Source of the DNA: Desulfomicrobium macestii
GTDB taxonomy: Bacteria; Desulfobacterota; Desulfovibrionia; Desulfovibrionales; Desulfomicrobiaceae
Direction of reading: 5' to 3'
DNA: 64,000 bases
NCBI RefSeq assembly: GCF_014873765.1
Contig: NZ_JADBGG010000004.1
Coordinates: forward strand, 1-64,000
In this document: piece by piece, positions 53,451-64,000 of the stretch
Layout of the letters: each line of letters starts with the position of its first letter
Numbering within the stretch: the stretch's first letter is position 1
Position numbers and translations under genes: made by a program
The notes under the pieces: generated by a model
Database searches by the model: none
Told to the model about the DNA's origin: nothing
What the model saw: the letters and a program-made list of their open reading frames with translations, nothing else

Positions 53451-54143
53451 ATGCCACGACCCAGGAAATGCCGTCGCATCGAAGGATGCCCCAAGGCGTC
53501 GTTTTTCAAGCCGCAGGGAATTCCCCTGCGCGAACTGACGGAAGTCTATCTGTCCATGGATGGTTTTGAAGCCCTGCGCCTGTCCGATTACGAAGGGCTT
53601 GGCATGGAGGAAGGCGCCGAGCGCATGCATGTTTCCCGGCACACTTTCGGCCGCATCCTTGGAGATGCCCGTCGCGTCGTGGCCAAGGCGCTGGTGGAAG
53701 GATTGGCTCTGCACATCGCCCATGATGCCCAGATGCCGTGTTTTCAACTGAATCCGGACCGTGTGGCGGCCCGCAAGAAGGAGCTTAGCATGACCAAGAT
53801 AGCCATTACCAGTGAAGGCCCGAATATGACGGATCGCGTTGATCCGCGTTTTGGCCGCGCGGCGGGATTCGTCGTCGTCGATCTTGAGACCATGGAGTCC
53901 ACGTACATCGACAACGGCGGCTCCCAGACCCTGTCCCACGGGGCCGGAATCCAGGCCGCCGAAAACATCATCAATGCCGGAGCCTCGGTGCTTCTGACCG
54001 GCAGTGTCGGCCCCAAGGCTTTTGCGGCGCTGAAGGGCGGCGGTGTCAAGATCGGCCATAACATGAGCGGCGGCACCGTGGCCGATGCGGTGGAGGCATT
54101 CAAGGCCGGCAAGGTTGAATTCACCGACTCTCCAAACAGATAG
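53451..54143 (+). CDS. DUF134-NifX fusion with an internal start
   Basis: The 230-residue protein joins a DUF134 helix-turn-helix domain (1-105; PRPRKCRRIEGCPKASFFKP, MHVSRHTFGRILGDARR) to a NifX/NifB-type domain (114-230; TDRVDPRFGRAAGFVVVD, VLLTGSVGPKAFAALKGGG). At the junction AAGGAG (53778-53783) lies six bases before an in-frame ATG at 53790, so a free NifX-type protein could also be made. A small inverted repeat TGCTC-GTTT-GAGCA (53424-53437) precedes the gene. The design suggests that a cofactor-binding module controls the DNA-binding half. Confidence 0.85.
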   Translation: MPRPRKCRRIEGCPKASFFKPQGIPLRELTEVYLSMDGFEALRLSDYEGLGMEEGAERMHVSRHTFGRILGDARRVVAKALVEGLALHIAHDAQMPCFQLNPDRVAARKKELSMTKIAITSEGPNMTDRVDPRFGRAAGFVVVDLETMESTYIDNGGSQTLSHGAGIQAAENIINAGASVLLTGSVGPKAFAALKGGGVKIGHNMSGGTVADAVEAFKAGKVEFTDSPNR

Positions 54144-54152
54144 GGTGCCATC

Positions 54153-55022
54153 ATGATCGTTTCGGTTGCCAGCGGAAAGGGCGGGACGGGCAAGACCACG
54201 GTCACGGCCTCTCTGGCCGTTTCCTGGTCCCGGCCTCTCATGGCCGTTGATCTGGATGTGGAAGAACCAAATCTTCACCTGTTCTTGAAACCGGAAGTCA
54301 CGGACACCGACGTCGTGACCATCGAAGTGCCCGAAGTGGACGAGAGCAAGTGCACGCATTGCCGCAAGTGCGCCGAGCTGTGCCAGTTCAAGGCCATCGC
54401 GGTCATGGGCAAGGCCATCATGACCTTTCCGGAGATGTGCCATGGTTGCGGCGGATGCATGGCCATCTGTCCCGAAGGCGCCATCGGCACGGGAACTCGC
54501 GAGCTTGGCGTCATGGAACGCGGTGTTGCCCGGGGCGCGTTGCCGTGCCTGACCGGGCGGCTGCGCGTCGGCGAGGCCATGAGCCCCCCGCTCATGCGGC
54601 ACGTGCGTTCATGCATGAGGGCAGAGAGCGAGGAGCGGTCCCTGGACGTGCTCGTCGACGCCCCTCCCGGCGTGAGTTGCCCGGCCATGAGCGCCGTTGC
54701 CGACAGCGATGTCATCGTGCTGGTCACCGAGCCCACGCCGTTCGGCTTTCATGATTTCAAATTGGCCTTCGAGGCGTTTTCCCCCTACGGCAAGCCCATC
54801 GCCGTGGTCATTAACCGGGCTGGTCTGGGAGACAAGCGTGTCTACGAATTCTGCACGGCCCAAAACCTGCCTATCCTGGCCGAAATTCCCTACCGCCGCG
54901 ACATCGCGGAGCATTACTCCAAAGGGATGATCCTGGCCGAAATGGATGAGGGCTTGGGCGAACTGTTTGTCAAGCTGGGCCAGGACTTGCGGCGTATGGC
55001 CAAGGAGGCCCGAAATGCGTGA
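54153..55022 (+). CDS. MinD/ParA-type ATPase with a 2[4Fe-4S] ferredoxin insert
   Basis: The 289-residue protein has a deviant Walker A (SGKGGTGKTT) and LDVEEPNLH, then an inserted ferredoxin domain (CTHCRKCAELC, CHGCGGCMAICP, about 65-115), and the ATPase continues (VDAPPGVSCP). It matches one of the two ORP-complex ATPases of D. vulgaris (DVU2103/2104). They are thought to help build or handle the Mo-Cu or Fe-S centre. It overlaps its paralogue at 55015 by eight bases. Confidence 0.88.
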   Translation: MIVSVASGKGGTGKTTVTASLAVSWSRPLMAVDLDVEEPNLHLFLKPEVTDTDVVTIEVPEVDESKCTHCRKCAELCQFKAIAVMGKAIMTFPEMCHGCGGCMAICPEGAIGTGTRELGVMERGVARGALPCLTGRLRVGEAMSPPLMRHVRSCMRAESEERSLDVLVDAPPGVSCPAMSAVADSDVIVLVTEPTPFGFHDFKLAFEAFSPYGKPIAVVINRAGLGDKRVYEFCTAQNLPILAEIPYRRDIAEHYSKGMILAEMDEGLGELFVKLGQDLRRMAKEARNA

Positions 55023-55887
55023 GGTAGTTGTGATCAGCGGCAAGGGCGGCACCGGCAAGACCTCTCTGACTGCCGCGTTCGCCCATTTGGCCGAGAGCAA
55101 GGTGATCTGCGACCTGGACGTGGACGCGCCGGATCTGCATCTTCTGCTGGATCCCGCCGTCGTTCGCGACGAGGCCTTCATTTCCGGGCACGAGGCTATC
55201 ATCGATCCGGAAAAGTGCTCGGGCTGTGGCCTGTGCGCATCCATGTGCCGGTACGATGCCATCGATCAGGACGGTGACGTGTACCGCATCGCCCCGCTGC
55301 GTTGCGAGGGCTGCAAGGTCTGCGTGGCTTTCTGCCCGGAGCAGGCCATAGATTTCCCCCCCCGTCACTGCGGGCAGCATTACATGAGCGAGACCCGTTT
55401 CGGTCCGATGGTGCATGCGCAGCTTTTCCCAGGGCAGGAGAATTCGGGGCTTCTGGTTTCGCGCCTGAAGAAAGAGGCCCGCGTCCTCGCCGAAGAGCGC
55501 GGCCTTGAGCTCATCCTGTGCGACGGCGCGCCAGGCATCGGTTGTCCGGTCATCGCTTCCCTTTCACAGACGGATCTGGCCGTGGTCGTGACCGAACCAA
55601 CTCCATCGGGAGTGCACGATCTGGAGCGGGTGGCCAGCCTGTGCGATCATTTCCGCACCAGGGTCGCGGTCGTGGTCAACAAGCATGACCTCAATCCAGA
55701 GCAAACAAGTCGAATTGGTGCGCTGTGCAAGGAAAAGGGCTACACACTGGCTGCGCTGCTGCCTCATGACACGGCGGTCACCGAGGCCATGGTCCGGCGG
55801 CAGGCCATTACCGAGGGCGAAGACAGTGCCATCGCCACGCAGGTCCGGCAGGCGTGGCGGACCATCACGGATCTTTTGCATTCATAA
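55015..55887 (+). CDS. Second MinD/ParA-type ATPase with a ferredoxin insert
   Basis: The ATG at 55015 overlaps the previous stop and gives 290 residues, paralogous to the neighbour. Walker A is SGKGGTGKTS, LDVDAPDLH follows, and the ferredoxin motifs are CSGCGLCASMC and CEGCKVCVAFCP. As in the D. vulgaris ORP operon the two probably form a heterodimer. It is followed 27 bases later by the ORP-like gene. Confidence 0.88.
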   Translation: MREVVVISGKGGTGKTSLTAAFAHLAESKVICDLDVDAPDLHLLLDPAVVRDEAFISGHEAIIDPEKCSGCGLCASMCRYDAIDQDGDVYRIAPLRCEGCKVCVAFCPEQAIDFPPRHCGQHYMSETRFGPMVHAQLFPGQENSGLLVSRLKKEARVLAEERGLELILCDGAPGIGCPVIASLSQTDLAVVVTEPTPSGVHDLERVASLCDHFRTRVAVVVNKHDLNPEQTSRIGALCKEKGYTLAALLPHDTAVTEAMVRRQAITEGEDSAIATQVRQAWRTITDLLHS

Positions 55888-55914
55888 GTTTATCGAACAA
55901 GGAGAAACACGTTC

Positions 55915-56292
55915 ATGGAAAAAGTAAGAATTGCAGTCCCTTCGGCGCTCCCGGGCGGACTTGAAGCAGAAGTCGGCGCCCATTTCGGGCATTGCGACCT
56001 GTACACCATCATCGACGTAGAGGGCGGTTCCGTGGCTCAGGTCAGCACCCTCCCCAACGTCCCCCATGCCCAGGGCGGCTGCATGGCCCCCGTCAATCAT
56101 CTGGCCAGCAACGGGGTAAACCTGCTCATTGCCGGCGGCATGGGCATGCGTCCGCTTATGGGTTTCAACCAGGTCGGCATCCAGGTTTTTTACGGCGCCG
56201 GCGCACCGAGTGTCGGAACGGCCGTGGATGCGCTCCTGAAGGGCGCGCTGGTGCCCTTCACCCAGGAATACACCTGCGGCGGCGGTCAATAG
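55915..56292 (+). CDS. Orange-protein-like NifX-family protein
   Basis: The 125-residue protein is a stand-alone dinitrogenase cofactor domain (VRIAVPSALPGGLEAEVGAH, FGHCDLYTIIDV, GVNLLIAGGMGMRPLMGFNQ, ending TCGGGQ). Next to the two ferredoxin-MinD ATPases it is the best candidate in this window for the ORP subunit, whose homologue in Desulfovibrio holds a S2MoS2CuS2MoS2 cluster. The cluster itself is not covalently held, so no ligand set can be read from the sequence. Confidence 0.82.
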   Translation: MEKVRIAVPSALPGGLEAEVGAHFGHCDLYTIIDVEGGSVAQVSTLPNVPHAQGGCMAPVNHLASNGVNLLIAGGMGMRPLMGFNQVGIQVFYGAGAPSVGTAVDALLKGALVPFTQEYTCGGGQ

Positions 56293-56368
56293 CCATCCTC
56301 CTGGCCGGACGATTTCGCCGTTGGAGACCGTTCGGCCTTTTTTTCAAGCATCTTTGAAGGAGATCGAC

Positions 56369-56728
56369 ATGCAGGTGGTCATTGTCACCGATCGGAACGA
56401 AGCCCTGCACGACTTCGCACAGGGCCTGGGGGGCGATGTCGAGTGGGCGAACAGCACGGAAGATGTACTGAACCGTGCACAGACCCCGCCCTGGCAGCTT
56501 GTCGTGGTCGATGCCATGACGCCCGGGATGGACTACAAGGCCTTTGTGATGGATTTGCTGCGCGTCAACGCCATGCTCAACACCGTGGTCATCACGGACA
56601 TGAGCGAGGAAGATTTTCACGAGGACAGCGAAGGACTCGGAGTGCTTTGCGCCGTGCCCGGGAACCCGAAGTGGGATGACGGGGCCAAGGCCATGAATCT
56701 GCTTTGCGTGCTTTACGGAATGGGCTGA
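56369..56728 (+). CDS. Receiver-like protein of the ORP cluster
   Basis: AAGGAG selects the ATG at 56369 (119 residues). The fold pattern is receiver-like (VVIVTDRNEALHDFAQGLGG; LVVVDAMTPGMDYKAFVMDL; VVITDMSEEDF), with the central Asp in VVVDAM. The first acidic pair is only a single Asp (VTDRN), and the C-terminal Lys position is uncertain. It may be a pseudo-receiver. It is the last gene before the terminator at 56751. Confidence 0.65.
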   Translation: MQVVIVTDRNEALHDFAQGLGGDVEWANSTEDVLNRAQTPPWQLVVVDAMTPGMDYKAFVMDLLRVNAMLNTVVITDMSEEDFHEDSEGLGVLCAVPGNPKWDDGAKAMNLLCVLYGMG

Positions 56729-56789: not shown

Positions 56790-57215
56790 CTAGTTGTACT
56801 CGTTCATGGCCGCGTCGGCGTAGGTGTCTTCGAGCACTTTGCGCAGACGGAAGGCGCCTTCGATCATGGGGGCGAGCTTGGGCAGGCCGTCGATCTTGTC
56901 GACATAGCTGAAGGCGCCCATGACTTCGGCCAGGCGGCGGGTCTCTTCGCTGCCGTGACCGGTGAAGAGGACGACCTGGATCTTGGAGTTGATGGCCTTT
57001 ATCTGTTTGAGGGTTTCGATGCCGTCGATGCCGGGCATCTCGATGTCGAGAACCACGACATCGTAGCTTTTCTTCTTGACCATCTCCAGGGCGTCGTCAC
57101 CTGTGTGGGCCACATCCGGAGACACGCCATACAGGATATTCAGGCGATCGGCGAGAATGCGGCAGAGATCCTTCTCGTCGTCCACGATCAGAAGCTTCAT
57201 CTTGTTCATGTTCAT
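56790..57215 (-). CDS. Stand-alone receiver protein 1
   Basis: The 141-residue protein is a receiver (LLIVDDEKDLCRIL, acceptor Asp in VVVLDIEMPGIDG, Thr in LFTGHGSEE, Lys in YVDKIDG) with a short helical tail. The Met at 57215 is very close to AGGAGG; the Met at 57209 is better spaced and may be the true start. It is the last gene of the long minus-strand signalling operon and overlaps the gene upstream by four bases. Confidence 0.85.
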   Translation of the reverse strand: MNMNKMKLLIVDDEKDLCRILADRLNILYGVSPDVAHTGDDALEMVKKKSYDVVVLDIEMPGIDGIETLKQIKAINSKIQVVLFTGHGSEETRRLAEVMGAFSYVDKIDGLPKLAPMIEGAFRLRKVLEDTYADAAMNEYN

Positions 57216-58360
57216 TCCTCCTTGGCAGATGCCGGTTCTTCCGGCCCGTTATGTTCGTTGTGTGCATGCACGGCCATGGGCACCGTTATGGTGAAGGTTG
57301 AGCCATGCCCAGGTGTGCTGCGCACGGATATGCTCCCTCCCATGGCCTCGATGATGCCGTGACAAATAGCCAGCCCCAGTCCAATCCCCTTGCCCACCTC
57401 CTTGGTGGAGAAAAAGGGTTCGAAAATTCGTGTCAGCAGATGCTCTTCCATGCCGCAGCCCGAATCCTGGACCGAAATCCGCAGCCGGGCGTCTTCGATG
57501 CTGCCCTGCAAACGCAGCAGGCGCTCCTTGGCGGGCGTTGATTCGAGCGCGTCCAGGGCATTGTCGACGAGGTTGCCCAGGACCTGGTTCCACTCCGAAT
57601 CCGGCAGGCGGATTCCTTGCAGCGGTTCCGGCCAGAGCTGCTCGACCCTTGCGCCCATCTGCTCGATCCGGTTCCGGCGTGCATCGAGAACATCCTGCGC
57701 CAGTTCAGGGAGACTTGCGGTCGTTCCCTTAGCGTCCAAGGCGCACCTCAAGGTCAGCAGCTTGGAGGTGATGGCCTTGCAACGCAGGCCCTGGCGCCGG
57801 ATCAGGTCTATGGATTCGAGAATCTGCTCTCGGCTGTTGTTCTCAAGAACCACGTCATCCAGGATTTCTTCGATCCATCCCGCCTCATTGAGCACGACCT
57901 GTAACGGGTTGTTGATCTCGTGGGCCACGCCCGTGGCCAGCTCCCCCATGGCGGCCAGCTTGGCCGTTTCGGCCATGCGCTGCCTGGACATGTTTTCCAT
58001 CCGCCGTCCTTCGGCTTCCCCGATGGCCGCAACCAGGACGTTTATGTCCGCCGGCTTGGTCAGGTAATCCCTGGCGCCGCCTTTCATGCCGGCCACAGCC
58101 GTGCCCAGGGTGGTGTCGGCCGTGAGCAGGATCACTTCCGGAGCAGGTTTTTCGGCCCGCAGGGCGTCCATGGTTTCAAGTCCGCTCATGCCCGGCATGG
58201 TGATGTCGAGGACCACGACCTCCGGTGCAAAGACCTTCGCGACCGCCAAGGCTCCCTGCCCGTCATACGCTGTCCGGACCTCCATGCCGCGCGTGCGCAG
58301 CCGCTCGGAGAGCAGGTCCGTGAAATCGCGTTCGTCGTCAACGACCAGGACTCGTACCAT
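57212..58360 (-). CDS. Hybrid protein: receiver followed by histidine kinase
   Basis: The 382-residue protein has an N-terminal receiver (VLVVDDERDFTDLL, acceptor in VVVLDITMPGMSG, Lys in DYLTKPADI; 1-120) and a C-terminal kinase (GELATGVAHEINNPLQVVLN, acceptor His near 147; NALDALES, VQDSGCGME, GIGLGLAICHG). The order, receiver before kinase, suggests a kinase controlled by an upstream phosphorelay. It has no sensor or membrane domain. The next gene is six bases away. Confidence 0.9.
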   Translation of the reverse strand: MVRVLVVDDERDFTDLLSERLRTRGMEVRTAYDGQGALAVAKVFAPEVVVLDITMPGMSGLETMDALRAEKPAPEVILLTADTTLGTAVAGMKGGARDYLTKPADINVLVAAIGEAEGRRMENMSRQRMAETAKLAAMGELATGVAHEINNPLQVVLNEAGWIEEILDDVVLENNSREQILESIDLIRRQGLRCKAITSKLLTLRCALDAKGTTASLPELAQDVLDARRNRIEQMGARVEQLWPEPLQGIRLPDSEWNQVLGNLVDNALDALESTPAKERLLRLQGSIEDARLRISVQDSGCGMEEHLLTRIFEPFFSTKEVGKGIGLGLAICHGIIEAMGGSISVRSTPGHGSTFTITVPMAVHAHNEHNGPEEPASAKEE

Positions 58361-58366
58361 ATCGAT

Positions 58367-58750
58367 TTACCGCTGGGGATGTTGGTTGCCTTGGGTCACG
58401 GTACGGACACTCTCTATCAACGTGTTGATATCAAGAGGTTTTTTGTGATACATCGCCGCCCCTAGATGGACGCAGGTCTCAAAGTCCATGTCCGAGCCAT
58501 GCCCGCTGAGCATGATCACGGGGAGGCCGGGCCACTGCTTGCGGATGCGGCGCAACACCTCCACGCCGCTGATTCCCGGCATGCGCAGGTCGAGCACGAT
58601 CACGTCGGGCGGATCCTCGGCGATCATGTCCAGTCCGCTTTGACCGTCAAGGGCCACCTTGGCCGAGAATCCGCGCATCTCAAGCCGCTCTTGCAGCGTG
58701 GTCACGAAAGCTTCTTCGTCATCAATGAGCAAAATGCTGGGTTCGTCCAT
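58367..58750 (-). CDS. Stand-alone receiver protein 2
   Basis: The 127-residue receiver has the acidic pocket ILLIDDEEAFVT, acceptor in VIVLDLRMPGISG, Ser in MLSGHGSDMD and Lys in YHKKPLDI. No output domain is present. It lies between the ChpT-like gene (23 bases away) and the hybrid kinase (six bases). Confidence 0.88.
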   Translation of the reverse strand: MDEPSILLIDDEEAFVTTLQERLEMRGFSAKVALDGQSGLDMIAEDPPDVIVLDLRMPGISGVEVLRRIRKQWPGLPVIMLSGHGSDMDFETCVHLGAAMYHKKPLDINTLIESVRTVTQGNQHPQR

Positions 58751-58773: not shown

Positions 58774-59400
58774 TCAAGACTGAACGGGAAAAAAGAGCCG
58801 CAGCGAACTGCCGTCCCACTCCACTCGACCCGGCGCAAGCATCGCCCCCAAGGCGGCGACTCCGTCCGGGTCGGGACTCACCCCGTCCGGGGGATAAATG
58901 GTCAGGACATGAAAATCTGCTCCGCCTTCAAGGCCGACACGCAGCACGCCTTCTTTGGTGCCCGTACCCACTGCCCACTGCAGCGCCCTGTAACCGCTCA
59001 TGAGCACCTGCAGGGCGCCCATGGAAACGGGCAAGGCGTTGGGCGGGGCCGTGAGGGTCAGGGCCGCGCCTTTCAAACGTACGTAACGATCGGCCAGTTG
59101 GGACAGTGTCTTGGAGTAGGCGGTCAGGTCGCAGCATTCGAGCAGATCCGCGTCCGGCGTATGGGCCAGCCGGCTGGTGGCGTCCAGCAACCCCTTGCCA
59201 CGGTCCACCTGGAAGGTGATGTTCTCAAGGGTGCGCTCCATGTTGGGCTTGTGCTTGAAATCGACCCTGGAGTTGACTTTGAGGATGTCACCCATGAGGC
59301 CCGCCGATTCCCGGATGATGGCCAGAATGTTCTGCATTTCGTGCATGTTCTGAGCCGTGACAGCACCCATGAAACGCGCTTCTTTCGGGATTTCAGACAT
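58774..59400 (-). CDS. Kinase-like protein without catalytic boxes (ChpT-like candidate)
   Basis: The 208-residue protein begins with a DHp-like helix containing a candidate acceptor His (NMHEMQNILAIIRESAGLM, near residue 20). The C-terminal half has the strand pattern of an ATPase domain (VSMGALQVLMSGYRALQWAV; VEWDGSSLRLFFPV) but no visible N, G1 or G2 box. This layout recalls ChpT, the histidine phosphotransferase of alphaproteobacteria. It overlaps receiver protein 3 by eight bases. Alternatively it is a degenerate kinase. Confidence 0.6.
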   Translation of the reverse strand: MSEIPKEARFMGAVTAQNMHEMQNILAIIRESAGLMGDILKVNSRVDFKHKPNMERTLENITFQVDRGKGLLDATSRLAHTPDADLLECCDLTAYSKTLSQLADRYVRLKGAALTLTAPPNALPVSMGALQVLMSGYRALQWAVGTGTKEGVLRVGLEGGADFHVLTIYPPDGVSPDPDGVAALGAMLAPGRVEWDGSSLRLFFPVQS

Positions 59401-59785
59401 GTTGAATTCCTTCCGGCGGATTGATGGCCTCGTTGATGGTTCGGATCAGTTCTTCGAGATCAAGGGGTTTTGTCAGATAGGCAAAGGCGCCGTGGCGCAT
59501 GCCATCGATGCCGTCACGCGTCTTGCCCTGCCCGGTAAGCAGGATGACCTGGACCGTCGGGTGCTCGCTTTTGACCTTCTGCAGTACTTCGATTCCCTTC
59601 ATTCCCGGCATCATGACGTCCAGCACGATCACCTGCGGCACATTGTCGGCCACGGCTTTGAGGGCCGATTCTCCGTCATGGACAACGCGGGCGTTGACCC
59701 CTCTGAGTTCCAGACGTTCGGCCAGGGTGACGATGAAATCGACTTCATCGTCCACCAACAGGATGTTCCATGTGTTCATATCCAT
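59393..59785 (-). CDS. Stand-alone receiver protein 3
   Basis: The ATG at 59785 gives 130 residues; longer frames run into the kinase gene in another frame. The receiver has ILLVDDEVDFIVTL, acceptor in VIVLDVMMPGMKG, Thr in LLTGQGKT and Lys in AYLTKPLDL. It follows the Cache kinase by two bases, so it is its most likely direct partner. Confidence 0.88.
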   Translation of the reverse strand: MDMNTWNILLVDDEVDFIVTLAERLELRGVNARVVHDGESALKAVADNVPQVIVLDVMMPGMKGIEVLQKVKSEHPTVQVILLTGQGKTRDGIDGMRHGAFAYLTKPLDLEELIRTINEAINPPEGIQHV

Positions 59786-59787
59786 GA

Positions 59788-61503
59788 TTAACCTTCCACA
59801 GGGTGTTTGGGCAGCAGGATGGTCATGGTGGTGCCCTCGTTCAATTTGCTCTTGACCTTGATCTCTCCGCCCAGGCGTTTGACGATGCCGTAAGTGATGG
59901 ACATGCCAAGTCCGGTGCCTTTTTCCTTTTTGGTGGTGAAGAACGGTTCGAACATGTTCTTCGCCGTCTCGTCGGACATGCCGCATCCATTGTCCTCGAT
60001 GGAGATGGCGACATAGTCGTCATCCACGTTCCAGCTGGAGAGCACGATCCGCCCACCGTCGGGAACGGCGGCCAGGGCGTTGTTCAGGATGTTGAGAAAG
60101 ACCTGCTGAATCTGGCCGTGATCGGTGGCGATGTTTGGCAGATTCATGGAGAGCTCGCGCTTGAGTTCGATATTGCGGTATTGGGCCTCGCGTTCGAGAA
60201 AGCCCAATGTTTCGACCAGCACGGCGTTCAGGTCCAGAATCTCGATCTTGACGTCCATGCGCTTGGCGAAGCTGAGCATGCGGTGGGTGATGCCCCGGCA
60301 GCGATCCACGGATCTGAGAATGGACTCGATCTGTCTGGCAAACTTGTCCTTGTCCGGAAAGTCGGGCCGCAGGTCCATGATGTCGCGCATGAGCCCGGCC
60401 TTTTCGTTGATGATGGCCAGAGGGTTGTTGATTTCGTGCGCGACGCCCGCGGCCAGGCGACCGATGGAGGACAGCTTCTGTGAATGCTCCATCTGGTGGA
60501 TGGCGCCGAGGCGCTGTTCGTCGCTTTCCTGCAAACGGTTGATGAGCACGCTGGTCAGGCGGTAGACGGCGATGAAGATGAAGATGACGCCGGTGACAAA
60601 GATGACAAGCAGGTCAAGGCGAACCGTGTACCAGGTGCTGAAGAACGTCGGCTTGAGCTTGACGGCCACGAGAACGAAGTCCGAGTCGGCGATGAAGGCC
60701 GAAGCGATGAAGATGTCGTTCTGATCGGGGTCGCGGATACCCTGCACGTTGGATTCGAAATTCGTTGGCGGCAGGCTGAAGGGCAACATGTCCAGCACCT
60801 TCCCGTAGCGTCGCGATTCGGTCTGCAGGACTCCGTTGCGATTGACCAGAAAGGCGTCGCTGCCCGGTTCGAGGCCCATGGCCGAGATGATGCGGTCAAA
60901 ATGCATGGTGTCGAGGGTGGCCCGCAGAATCCATGACTGACCGCTTTCCGTGGTGTGCCGCACCGCGATGACCACATGGGGAAATTTGCGAAAACCCAGG
61001 AATACGTCACTTATGTACGTGCCCTTGAACTGGACCTGGTGAAACCAGTCCTGGGAGGTGTAGTTGCGGTCCTTGAGATCGTAGGGGCCGGCGTAGCTGA
61101 CCTGGTTGCCGGCGGTATCGATGAGCCCGAGATCGACAAAGCCGGTGAATTCGCGGCGCATGACCTGAAAGATGCGCTGCAGGTTGGCGTCGTTGGAGAG
61201 TTCGTCGAAGGAGTAGGCCGAGGCGATGAAGCTCACCGCCGAGGTCCGTTCGGCCAGGAAAAGCTCGAAGGAATGCTTGGCCTTGCCCACCAGCGCCCTG
61301 AGCGGGGCCTGGATTTCGGCCGACATGGAGCTCTGGTGCTCGTAATAATTGATTGCGGCCAGCGAGAGCAGCGGCAGCAGGGTGACCAGGGCCATGAGCG
61401 AAACGATCTTGCGCCGCAACAGTTTGTAGCGGTCGGGAGAATTGATCTCCGTGGCCAGATCGGCCTTGATGGCTTCCATGGGGCCGGACAGGATTTTTTT
61501 CAT
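59788..61503 (-). CDS. Membrane histidine kinase with a double-Cache-type sensor
   Basis: The 571-residue protein has TM1 (about 34-54), a periplasmic Cache-like region (about 60-295; FVDLGLIDTAGNQVSYAGPY, DAFLVNRNGVLQTESRRYG), TM2 (about 300-322), a HisKA domain (GRLAAGVAHEINNPLAII, His near 350) and an ATPase domain (NILNNALAAV, EDNGCGMSD, GTGLGMSIT). Cache domains sense small organic or inorganic ligands in the periplasm. It overlaps the NifX-like gene by four bases and is the only membrane sensor in this operon. Confidence 0.92.
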   Translation of the reverse strand: MKKILSGPMEAIKADLATEINSPDRYKLLRRKIVSLMALVTLLPLLSLAAINYYEHQSSMSAEIQAPLRALVGKAKHSFELFLAERTSAVSFIASAYSFDELSNDANLQRIFQVMRREFTGFVDLGLIDTAGNQVSYAGPYDLKDRNYTSQDWFHQVQFKGTYISDVFLGFRKFPHVVIAVRHTTESGQSWILRATLDTMHFDRIISAMGLEPGSDAFLVNRNGVLQTESRRYGKVLDMLPFSLPPTNFESNVQGIRDPDQNDIFIASAFIADSDFVLVAVKLKPTFFSTWYTVRLDLLVIFVTGVIFIFIAVYRLTSVLINRLQESDEQRLGAIHQMEHSQKLSSIGRLAAGVAHEINNPLAIINEKAGLMRDIMDLRPDFPDKDKFARQIESILRSVDRCRGITHRMLSFAKRMDVKIEILDLNAVLVETLGFLEREAQYRNIELKRELSMNLPNIATDHGQIQQVFLNILNNALAAVPDGGRIVLSSWNVDDDYVAISIEDNGCGMSDETAKNMFEPFFTTKKEKGTGLGMSITYGIVKRLGGEIKVKSKLNEGTTMTILLPKHPVEG

Positions 61504-61853
61504 GTCGTTTCCAATGCCCGGTCGTAGAGGATGTCTCCGGCTTTGAGTGTTCCTTCCGTCAGGCGGGAGACAACGCGTTCCACCGGACCCATGACCGAGT
61601 CGATGACGTCGATGCGCTTCCAGCGCAGATAGTGGTAATACTCGTCCTCAATGCCTCCGCAGACGATGGTGCCGATGTCCCTGGAAAGGGCCAGATCGCA
61701 AAGTTCGTCTCCGGAAGCGTAAGCCAGAAGAAAGGACTTGCGCAAGACGATTTCTCCGCTTTCGGAAATGGTCAGCAACAGGGCTTCGGTAGTCAGGTCG
61801 AAGCGAGGGGCGATTTCGTCCTTGGCGACGGTGATCAGCACGCGGCGTTCCAT
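61500..61853 (-). CDS. NifX-family protein of the signalling operon
   Basis: The 117-residue protein matches the dinitrogenase cofactor domain (VLITVAKDEIAPRFDLTTEA; TIVCGGIEDEYYHYLRWKRI; VERVVSRLTEGTL). It lacks the Gly/Arg or Cys tail of the other NifX-type proteins in this window and has YYHYLRW in place of the usual loop. Two bases separate it from the AAA+ gene and it overlaps the kinase gene. A sensory role for a bound metal or thiometallate ligand would suit the setting but is inferred. Confidence 0.8.
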   Translation of the reverse strand: MERRVLITVAKDEIAPRFDLTTEALLLTISESGEIVLRKSFLLAYASGDELCDLALSRDIGTIVCGGIEDEYYHYLRWKRIDVIDSVMGPVERVVSRLTEGTLKAGDILYDRALETT

Positions 61854-61855
61854 TG

Positions 61856-63088
61856 CTATCGCTCCTCCGTGTTCTTGCGACCGGCCTTGCGACTCTTTTC
61901 CACCGGGCGAACAGGCGCTTCGGTTTCGGCGTCGTCCGTCAGGTGCATGGGCAGATGCTCGGTCCGGATGGTGTCGCCGCTACATACCATGGCGGCGAAT
62001 TCCATGATGTTTTTGAGCTCGCGCACGTTGCCCGGAAAATCGTGGGCGTACACATGGCGCTGGGCTTTGGGGCTTATGGCGGCGATGTTCTTTTTGAAAC
62101 GCGTCGCATAATGGCCCATGAAATGATGCAGCAGGAACCCGAGGTCTTCCCCGCGATCCTTGAGCCTGGGCAGGTGCAGGCGGATGGCTGAAATGCGATG
62201 GAAAAGATCCTCCCGCAGACGCCCCTCCTGCACCAGCTTTTCCGGCGACTCGGCCGTGGAAGCCATGAGCCGGGCGTTTGCCCGCATGGGTTTGCCCGCG
62301 CCGACAGGCAGAATGGTGCCCTCGTCCAGAAATCTGACCAGACTGCTTTGCTGCGAGAGAGGCAGATCCGCGATTTCCGAGAGGTACAGGGTTCCGCCCT
62401 GGGCCTGCTGGAACCTGCCGGACTTGAGTTCTCCGTCCGGCCCCTGCATGCGTCCGAACAGTTCGGCGTCGAGCAGTTCGGAGGGCATGGGCCCGCAGCT
62501 GAAGCGCACGAAAGGCTCGCGTGATCGTGGCGAGGCCTTGTGCACCGATTCGGCCAAAAGATCCTTGCCTGTGCCGGTTTCGCCGGTGATCAGCACCGGA
62601 GTGTCGTGCTGAGCGATGACAGGCACAAGGCCGAGAATCTTTTTCATGCCCGGGCTGCGTCCCACGATTTGGCCGTGGTCCGCGACCTGGGACAGGCGTG
62701 CCTCGATTTCCCGCAGGGCCGTCAATTCTTCCACCACGTCGAGCACGCAGATGGGCCGGTTGTTTCCATCCAGAACGCGCACCGGAGTGATGCGGACGGG
62801 AATCTTGCGGTGATGACGGTTGATGCAATCGGTCTCGATCCCGACTCCCGGAACCGTCTCCTTCCCGTGGGGACAGTCCTGCAGGCAGGCCCGGCTGCGC
62901 AGGACGTGCCTGCAAGGCAGCCCGCGCACTTCTTCCCGGTTGTACCCGGTCAGGGCTTCGAGGGCCTTGTTGAGCATGAGGACATGCCCCTCGTTGTCCA
63001 GGAGGGCCACCCCAACGGGCAGCCCATCCAGAAGGGAGGGCAGGTCCGGGCAATCGGTGCCGATCAATTCTTCAATCCGTTTGAGCAC
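61856..63088 (-). CDS. Degenerate sigma-54-activator-like protein (no GAFTGA, no DNA-binding domain)
   Basis: The 410-residue protein has a PAS domain (20-130) with C59, C68 and C72 (C-x8-C-x3-C-P) and an AAA+ domain of the sigma-54 activator family. Walker A is intact (GETGTGKD, 169-176). The loop between FG (211-212) and GRF (224-226) is only 11 residues and has no GAFTGA; Walker B reads LYLSEI, with Ser237 for Asp. The sensor and DFPGNVREL regions are present, but the protein ends in a basic Lys/Arg tail with no helix-turn-helix. It cannot be a standard activator. Confidence 0.88.
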   Translation of the reverse strand: MLKRIEELIGTDCPDLPSLLDGLPVGVALLDNEGHVLMLNKALEALTGYNREEVRGLPCRHVLRSRACLQDCPHGKETVPGVGIETDCINRHHRKIPVRITPVRVLDGNNRPICVLDVVEELTALREIEARLSQVADHGQIVGRSPGMKKILGLVPVIAQHDTPVLITGETGTGKDLLAESVHKASPRSREPFVRFSCGPMPSELLDAELFGRMQGPDGELKSGRFQQAQGGTLYLSEIADLPLSQQSSLVRFLDEGTILPVGAGKPMRANARLMASTAESPEKLVQEGRLREDLFHRISAIRLHLPRLKDRGEDLGFLLHHFMGHYATRFKKNIAAISPKAQRHVYAHDFPGNVRELKNIMEFAAMVCSGDTIRTEHLPMHLTDDAETEAPVRPVEKSRKAGRKNTEER

Positions 63089-63099
63089 GAGCCTCTCCT

Positions 63100-63519
63100 T
63101 TAGTGCGCGCCGCCTCCGACGATTCCGGATGCCGCGAAGCAGAGGACCAGGACTTCAAGAAACGCAATGATGGCGAACACGAAGTCCTTTTTCTTGAGGT
63201 AGGCAAGGGTGACCGGGATGTAGGCCACGATGGTCAGGCCGCCCAGAAGCGCGATTCCAAGGAAGTTCAGGAAGTCGCCGTTGGACAGTAGGGTCGCCCA
63301 GCCCCAGCCGGTGGGCACGTTGTTGTCCGCGAGATACTGTCCCACGGGCAACCCCCAGTATTTGATCACGTTGTCCATGGACACGTAGGGGTCCATGATG
63401 CCGGTGACGTAGAGCAAGTATGTTACCAGCATGAGCGCGAGGCCGCTCCAACATCCGTAGAAGAGGATGTTTGCGTATGCGATCTGTTCGGCAGGCGCGT
63501 TGGTATCGGGTTTATTCAT
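63100..63519 (-). CDS. DUF1634 membrane protein
   Basis: AAGGAGA selects the ATG at 63519, giving 139 residues with four predicted membrane segments (ILFYGCWSGLALMLVTYLL; FLNFLGIALLGGLTIVAYI; FVFAIIAFLEVLVLCFAASG). DUF1634 proteins are regularly encoded beside TauE/SafE exporters, as here, and are probably an accessory subunit. It lies 28 bases after the exporter gene and 11 bases before the AAA+ gene, which ties the exporter to the signalling genes. Confidence 0.82.
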   Translation of the reverse strand: MNKPDTNAPAEQIAYANILFYGCWSGLALMLVTYLLYVTGIMDPYVSMDNVIKYWGLPVGQYLADNNVPTGWGWATLLSNGDFLNFLGIALLGGLTIVAYIPVTLAYLKKKDFVFAIIAFLEVLVLCFAASGIVGGGAH

Positions 63520-63547
63520 GTCTTTTCTCCTTAGATTCTGGAATATG

Positions 63548-64000
63548 TTAGAAGCCCAGGCCCTTGGCCAATGCCTTTCCACCCGCGAAGAGCAGCACGC
63601 CGATGACCATGTAGCGGATGAAGGTGGGCTTGGCGATGGCCAGCAGGCGCACGCCGACGAAAGAACCCATCATCAGTCCCACGATGGAGGGAATGGCCAT
63701 GAGCGGGATGACGCAACCCTGGTTCAGATAAACCCAGGCGGCGGAGGTATCGGTGATGGAGAGGAGAAATTTGCTGGTGCCGACGGCGACCTTGAGCGGC
63801 GCGCCCATGAGCAGGTTCAGGACGGGAACGTTTGCCCAGCCTGCGCCAAGTCCGAACATGCCGGCCATGATGCCGATGACGATGAAGAGCAGGAGGCCCA
63901 TGACGGTGCGGTGTGTTTTCCACTCCACGATCTCGCCGGTGGCAGGTTCCATGTAGGCGCCTCTCATTCCAAAGGCCAGGCTCAGGGCGTCCTGCTTTTC
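63548..64000 (-). CDS. TauE/SafE-family exporter, C-terminal part; gene runs off the window
   Basis: The frame is open to the right edge, so only the last ~150 residues are seen. It contains the second TauE half-repeat (GIMAGMFGLGAGWANVPVLN, VGTSKFLLS, GCVIPLMAIPSIVGLMMGS). A cytoplasmic loop (MEPATGEIVEWKTHRT) precedes it. The Met at 63967 is internal. This is the second TauE-type exporter in the window and heads the visible part of the minus-strand operon. Confidence 0.85.
   Translation of the reverse strand, partial: EKQDALSLAFGMRGAYMEPATGEIVEWKTHRTVMGLLLFIVIGIMAGMFGLGAGWANVPVLNLLMGAPLKVAVGTSKFLLSITDTSAAWVYLNQGCVIPLMAIPSIVGLMMGSFVGVRLLAIAKPTFIRYMVIGVLLFAGGKALAKGLGF

Follow-up and report, generated by a model that had tools for sequence, protein, structure and literature searches.

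The window analyzed here, 64,000 nucleotides of a Desulfomicrobium macestii contig (NZ_JADBGG010000004.1), encodes a PAS-AAA+ protein of the bEBP fold that has lost both the GAFTGA loop and the C-terminal HTH. This protein is a real variant, conserved in many sulfate reducers, and it has a specific candidate partner. On balance, we favor a reading in which it is an ATP-binding, signal-sensing protein that joins or docks on a second, short EBP and restrains it, a feedback of the pspF/pspA kind; the physical partnership, the ATP binding, and the inhibitory direction are what we infer. An earlier note on this DNA had proposed that the protein might bind ATP without hydrolysis and inhibit or stabilize a partner activator, for which the short EBP encoded divergently just outside the window is now a concrete candidate.

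The window gene and its operon

The gene and its neighbors within the window are as follows.

61856-63088 (-): 410-aa PAS-AAA+ protein of the bEBP fold in which GAFTGA, Walker B Asp, and HTH are missing (frame reading, domain profiles, alignment)
62729-63043 (-): PAS domain, residues ~16-120, with conserved Cys59, Cys68, and Cys72 (Pfam and alignment)
62561-62584 (-): Walker A GETGTGKD, residues 169-176 (alignment)
62420-62452 (-): residues 213-223, RMQGPDGELKS, where intact relatives have the GAFTGA loop (alignment)
62375-62380 (-): Walker B, with Ser237 where Asp would be, and Glu238 (alignment)
61859-61936 (-): C-terminal basic tail, residues 385-410, where a Fis-type HTH would be (alignment, model)
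63548-64000 (-): TauE/SafE (TSUP) permease, C-terminal part, its start past the window end
63100-63522 (-): 140-aa membrane protein on which the order-wide survey is anchored, with a weak DUF1634 match
61500-61853 (-): NifX-like 117-aa protein, Nitro_FeMo-Co fold (weak Pfam match, E=0.003), directly downstream of the PAS-AAA+ gene
59788-61503 (-): Cache-type sensor histidine kinase, same operon
59393-59791 (-): single-domain response regulator, without DNA-binding domain (Pfam)
58774-59400 (-): 208-aa protein akin to a kinase dimerisation region, no Pfam match
58367-58750 (-): single-domain response regulator (Pfam)
57212-58360 (-): receiver-histidine kinase hybrid (Pfam)
56790-57215 (-): single-domain response regulator (Pfam)

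The reading frame runs without interruption from a GTG start at 63088, preceded by AAAGGAG, which makes a good ribosome-binding site, to a TAG at 61856, and 2 bases separate the gene from the NifX-like gene downstream, in keeping with the earlier description of an intact gene in a tight operon. Pfam profiles detect PAS (residues 16-120), Sigma54_activat (PF00158, residues 141-304, 2e-47), and AAA_lid_14 (310-391), and in the same search HTH_8 is absent from the protein. Alignment places Walker A at residues 169-176 and DFPGNVREL at 350-358, both of which had been listed as retained. The missing GAFTGA and a contact loop shorter by three residues, also described earlier, are borne out as well: the stretch from ELFG to GRF comprises 11 residues in the window protein versus 14 (HxKGAFTGAxxxxP) in intact relatives. 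Walker B reads YLSE, and the ATPase site is incomplete, with Ser237 in place of the Walker B Asp and Ser197 in place of the switch Asn; Glu238, R292, R298, and R356 are present. Set against the bEBP family as a whole, the protein has the AAA+ domain with Walker A and lacks the GAFTGA loop, the C-terminal HTH, and a complete ATPase site. Its sigma-54 domain is the weakest complete one in its own genome, at 164 bits versus 188-249 for the other single-hit complete domains.

Past the lid, the protein closes with a K/R-rich 27-residue tail, predicted to be disordered (pLDDT <50 from residue 387) in an AlphaFold2 model that is itself only moderate (mean pLDDT 72, pTM 0.53, 11 sequences). The earlier note's basic tail without HTH is thus seen in the window protein, but the tail is not family-wide: it is missing in g34 and g27 members, and its dN/dS is mostly 0.4-0.7 (more distant genus pairs). 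Such absence and fast evolution leave a role for the tail as a replacement DNA-binding domain unsupported. Elsewhere in the operon, the distant likeness of the 208-aa protein is to the operon's own histidine kinase, in its dimerisation region, and the 208-aa protein is kept in the operon across families.

Conservation and stepwise erosion across the Desulfovibrionales

The PAS-AAA+ gene is found in 13 of the 16 genomes of its own genus at 70-97% identity, falling to 57% in another genus of its family and 53% in a further family. An order-wide survey anchored on the neighboring 140-aa membrane protein, which occurs in 118 of 297 genomes, led through 80 loci to 60 orthologues from at least 14 genera and two families of the Desulfovibrionales. 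GAFTGA is present in none of the 60, and the HTH is missing in 56. By comparison, all 60 aligned sequences have Walker A Lys175 and likewise sensor II Arg356, position 238 holds E (54 sequences) or D (6 sequences), and the Arg fingers are mostly kept, R292 in 49/60 and R298 in 53/60, the replacements including R292D in 7 sequences and R298H in 6. PAS cysteines 59, 68, and 72 are retained in 53-55 of the 60 orthologues and in all 26 intact relatives. Whole-gene dN/dS by the Nei-Gojobori method, computed against genus members, is 0.065-0.17, and that of the AAA core is 0.05-0.16.

The alignment with homologues that the earlier note had proposed thus finds the same GAFTGA loss throughout and the same HTH loss nearly so, and a single damaged copy is rejected, as the GAFTGA loss is common to all 60 orthologues. 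The suggestion of repurposing, as opposed to decay, gains from this conserved clade with common losses and from purifying selection. One might still regard the gene as a functionless leftover retained through its position inside the operon, as the loss of motifs is progressive and one metagenome-assembled copy carries an in-frame TGA; low dN/dS, residues of Walker A and sensor II that never vary, and PAS cysteines conserved across at least 14 genera argue so clearly otherwise that we give this reading hardly any credence. The TGA in question (locus L013 of MAG G010) lies at codon 68, the position of the conserved PAS cysteine 68. RNA folds around it yield no convincing SECIS-like hairpin, and tRNA-Sec is present in the genome; the TGA could be selenocysteine, mutation, or assembly error.

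A different picture emerges for Walker B. Among related PAS-EBPs, 26 have GAFTGA, and 25 of these also have the HTH, the exception (L169) being a short-tailed copy at a contig end. All 26 lack the Walker B Asp, with Thr in 25 and Ala in one. Its loss is therefore ancestral, earlier than the losses of sigma-54 contact and DNA binding, and lost hydrolysis cannot be inferred from its absence. The Ser237 substitution that the earlier note reported is real, but its use as a mark of repurposing is rejected. That note had also held that homologues with intact GAFTGA and HTH would reduce this gene to a single damaged copy; such proteins do exist, but they form a separate paralogous clade and are not orthologues. 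The intact PAS-EBPs (e.g., L018, L154-L173), to all appearances functional sigma-54 activators, thus have Walker B Thr for Asp as a group.

In a tree of the operon proteins and intact relatives, built with the loop columns left out, the operon proteins form one clade apart from the intact PAS-EBPs (SH-aLRT 100). Genus g24, which has GAFPGA and still carries the complete HTH, branches first within this eroded clade, and the remaining 56 orthologues, all without HTH, are united with a branch support of 99. Six of these 56 retain the loop at full length, and it then contains a Pro-Trp pair (GAFPWA, GSYPWA, GAAPWA, GGLPWV); in the other 50, the loop is replaced by unrelated, usually shorter sequence. 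As read from these sequences, the HTH was lost once and the loop once or twice, and the erosion proceeded by steps from GAFTGA to GAFPGA with HTH (the D. vulgaris-type genus), to GAFPWA without HTH, and then to deletion of the loop. In genus g21, the Walker B Asp position is Pro (GGSMFFPEL), at seven loci (L083, L086, L092, L093, L095, L097, L100). R292 is Asp in seven family members, which may or may not coincide with these.

A divergent short EBP and its regulatory DNA

Beyond the window end, between the TauE operon and the short EBP, lie a promoter element and a palindrome.

C4:64622-64637 (-): -24/-12 sigma-54 promoter element of the TauE operon, TGGCACGCTCCTTGCC (sequence motif)
C4:64691-64706: UAS palindrome CGGCAA-N4-TTGCCG, CGGCAAAATATTGCCG (sequence motif)
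C4:64813-65892 (+): short EBP, 359 aa, divergent from the TauE operon, outside the window

The short EBP is PspF-like: GAFTGA, Walker B with its Asp (LFLDEV), and the Fis-type HTH are all intact, and a sensor domain is absent. Promoter-like elements and CGGCAA/TTGCCG half-sites of similar kind occur in most loci examined. The palindrome itself has 3 copies in the whole genome, of which two flank the short EBP gene. The second of these lies 3' of that gene, ahead of a cluster (L021 3004-10113; C4 66003-73112) whose genes, judged from sequence only, resemble those for FmdE, ABC uptake, and a TonB receptor, possibly a second target.

The short EBP is present at 13/13 named loci, and its orthologues stand apart sharply, with 61 of 297 genomes at E<=2e-106 and the next best match at 2e-84. 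In 60 of these 61 genomes, the eroded PAS-AAA+ gene lies near it on the same contig, the exception (G266) being a fragmented assembly; conversely, two PAS-AAA+ loci are without a clean short EBP, one at a contig edge (G222) and one in a frameshifted MAG (G293). Both genes occur at 59 TauE-DUF loci (two that a contig or fetch edge truncates are included) and neither occurs at 37; across these loci, the short EBP, PAS-AAA+, and NifX-like genes are all present or all absent together. TauE-DUF operons without the three genes, many of them with kinase and receivers, include L128, L130, L131, and L137-L150. A separate short EBP was not found in the related operons with an intact PAS-EBP (L024, L164, L168, L173), nor did any genome from the phylum-wide sample outside the order contain the short EBP of this group (best about 50%, E about 1e-90). 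The presence or absence of the pair has changed only about 3 times on the locus tree; the co-inheritance, almost wholly vertical and between neighbors that co-inherit anyway, is suggestive with little independent statistical weight. An independent-pairs test has just 2-3 pairs and so is without power, and the NifX-like gene tracks the pair as well as each of the two tracks the other.

This last observation bears on a reading that would take the eroded protein away from transcription altogether, as a PAS-gated, ATPase-like switch for the NifX-like neighbor or for the histidine kinase and receivers, with the short EBP a mere regulator of the operon. The NifX-like gene is directly 3' in almost all loci (57/57 complete eroded loci, 23/26 intact relatives), the operon holds no DNA-binding response regulator, and the losses of GAFTGA, HTH, and some Arg fingers would fit a role away from RNA polymerase. 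Such a switch leaves unexplained, however, why the short EBP occurs exactly where the PAS-EBP is eroded and not where it is intact, and the kinase is also found without the PAS-AAA+ gene, in 20 loci. We consider this reading rather unlikely.

Known systems and the favored mechanism

The closest precedent is in Desulfovibrio vulgaris Hildenborough, where DVU2960 is listed as an EBP with GAFPGA within the DVU2957 operon and DVU2956 as a short EBP that diverges from that operon (Kazakov et al., 2015; PMC4641369). In electrophoretic mobility shift assays, the promoter was bound by DVU2956 only, not by DVU2960; these workers inferred a partner or cascade for DVU2956 and left DVU2960 without a function (PMC4641369). 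DVU2956 reportedly represses biofilm, acts as a switch between planktonic and biofilm growth in D. vulgaris, and has an effect on sulfide production (PMC8586430). The published DVU2956-DVU2964 layout, with DVU2960 between the TauE/DUF and NifX-like/HK genes and a divergent short EBP, places it in the present group, and here, as there, a short EBP is divergent from a sigma-54 operon holding a second, motif-defective EBP. The g24 loci would correspond to the D. vulgaris-type pair by the match of motif (GAFPGA) and layout, and by context and motif the window protein appears to be an orthologue of DVU2960. It differs in having lost both the GAFTGA-type loop and the HTH, whereas DVU2960 has GAFPGA and its g24 class has the C-terminal HTH, so that we regard the window protein, on this comparison, as a further-eroded form of the known but functionally unexplained DVU2960. 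The order-wide erosion is absent from the account of DVU2960 by Kazakov et al. (PMC4641369).

The layout also recalls the phage shock system of E. coli, where the sensor-less bEBP PspF is divergent from the operon encoding its trans-acting inhibitor PspA. PspA docks on PspF through a YLW patch. PspA is not an AAA+ protein, whereas the candidate modulator here is an eroded bEBP. More generally, bEBPs without a sensor domain are regulated in trans, PspF by PspA and HrpRS by HrpV (PMC7057263).

Consistent with these precedents, we propose that a former full PAS-EBP has become a pseudo-subunit regulating the divergently encoded short EBP. The short EBP would bind CGGCAA-N4-TTGCCG and drive the TauE operon from its -24/-12 promoter. 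The PAS-AAA+ protein, a product of this same operon, would bind ATP and, in one PAS/NifX-like-controlled state, mix into or dock on the short EBP ring. As a protomer without the GAFTGA loop, it would leave too few adjacent loops to engage sigma-54, and the short EBP would be held back until the signal changes. This brake is favored because the short EBP lacks a sensor domain, as do the bEBPs regulated in trans; because the two genes lie close together at all the named loci and in all but one of the short-EBP genomes; because a separate short EBP is absent where the PAS-EBP is intact; because DVU2956 and not DVU2960 bound the promoter (PMC4641369); because Walker A Lys, sensor II Arg, and most Arg fingers are retained, versus GAFTGA in no orthologue, under purifying selection; and because the layout is that of pspF/pspABCDE. 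The first erosion step, GAFTGA to GAFPGA, points the same way, as it falls at the position of PspF T86, where T86A blocks activation: T86A protomers linked to wild type give no efficient activation, two adjacent working L1 loops being needed (PMC4132715). A mixed-ring role would not be uniform, as Arg fingers are lost in some lineages. More tentatively, we entertain a two-protein sigma-54 switch arising from a split AAA+ activator, a sensor-less motor that would bind DNA and sigma-54 and a motor-derived, dominant-negative gate that would retain no more than the sensor, the nucleotide pocket, and the ring interface.

The same PspF experiments can be turned toward the opposite sign, in which the eroded protein would be a co-activator in a hetero-oligomer, giving the short EBP needed ring subunits, Arg fingers, and signal input. 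Sequence by itself is compatible with either sign. PspF hydrolysis requires the R-fingers, Walker B D107/E108, and switch N64 (PMC12054792), and linked PspF rings tolerate hydrolysis-impaired E108Q protomers, while N64S still engages sigma-54 (PMC4132715); most orthologues here keep the Arg fingers. Mixed assemblies of two related bEBPs on one promoter are also known. HrpRS is a hetero-hexamer (PMC7057263), and VnfA1 and VnfA3 mix, with the accessory VnfZ encoded beside VnfA3 (PMC9542535), recalling the NifX-like neighbor. But HrpR and HrpS each have all characteristic motifs (PMC7057263) and VnfA3 binds DNA (PMC9542535), whereas in the present pair the short EBP is complete and the window protein is without GAFTGA and HTH; in neither system as described has a partner lost both, and L1-dead protomers blocked activation in PspF (PMC4132715). 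A co-activator is thus, to our minds, unlikely.

R. capsulatus NtrC, Caulobacter NtrC, and V. cholerae VspR, too, have lost the loop that contacts sigma-54 and kept the rest of the AAA+ domain; these GAFTGA-less bEBPs do work at sigma-70 promoters (PMC10274813), and the window protein could in principle act at such promoters in their manner, using ATP binding without sigma-54. Those proteins are DNA-bound promoter regulators, however, and the window protein has no HTH (56 of the 60 orthologues are without it); DVU2960, with an HTH expected from its class, failed to bind the tested promoter (PMC4641369), and the basic tail, which some genera lack, shows poor conservation. We judge this reading very improbable and return to the brake.

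Rings of bEBPs are textbook homo-hexamers, and, to our knowledge, the control of sensor-less bEBPs is known for few cases. If the brake is true, a widespread natural L1-less protomer would mean that cells use the poisoned mixed rings so far obtained through engineering of PspF, and DVU2960 would gain a function and DVU2956 an input. The stages of motor loss (GAFTGA, GAFPGA, GAFPWA, loop deleted, HTH gone) survive in living genera, a graded series in which the order of losses is directly testable.

Convergent with the operon in the window is a cluster on the plus strand (53451-56728) comprising DUF134-NifX, two MinD/ferredoxin ATPases, NifX, and a weak receiver-like protein, which we take to resemble the ORP/Mrp operons of Desulfovibrio. 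The receiver-like protein has a second copy (49%) at L021 10141-10569.
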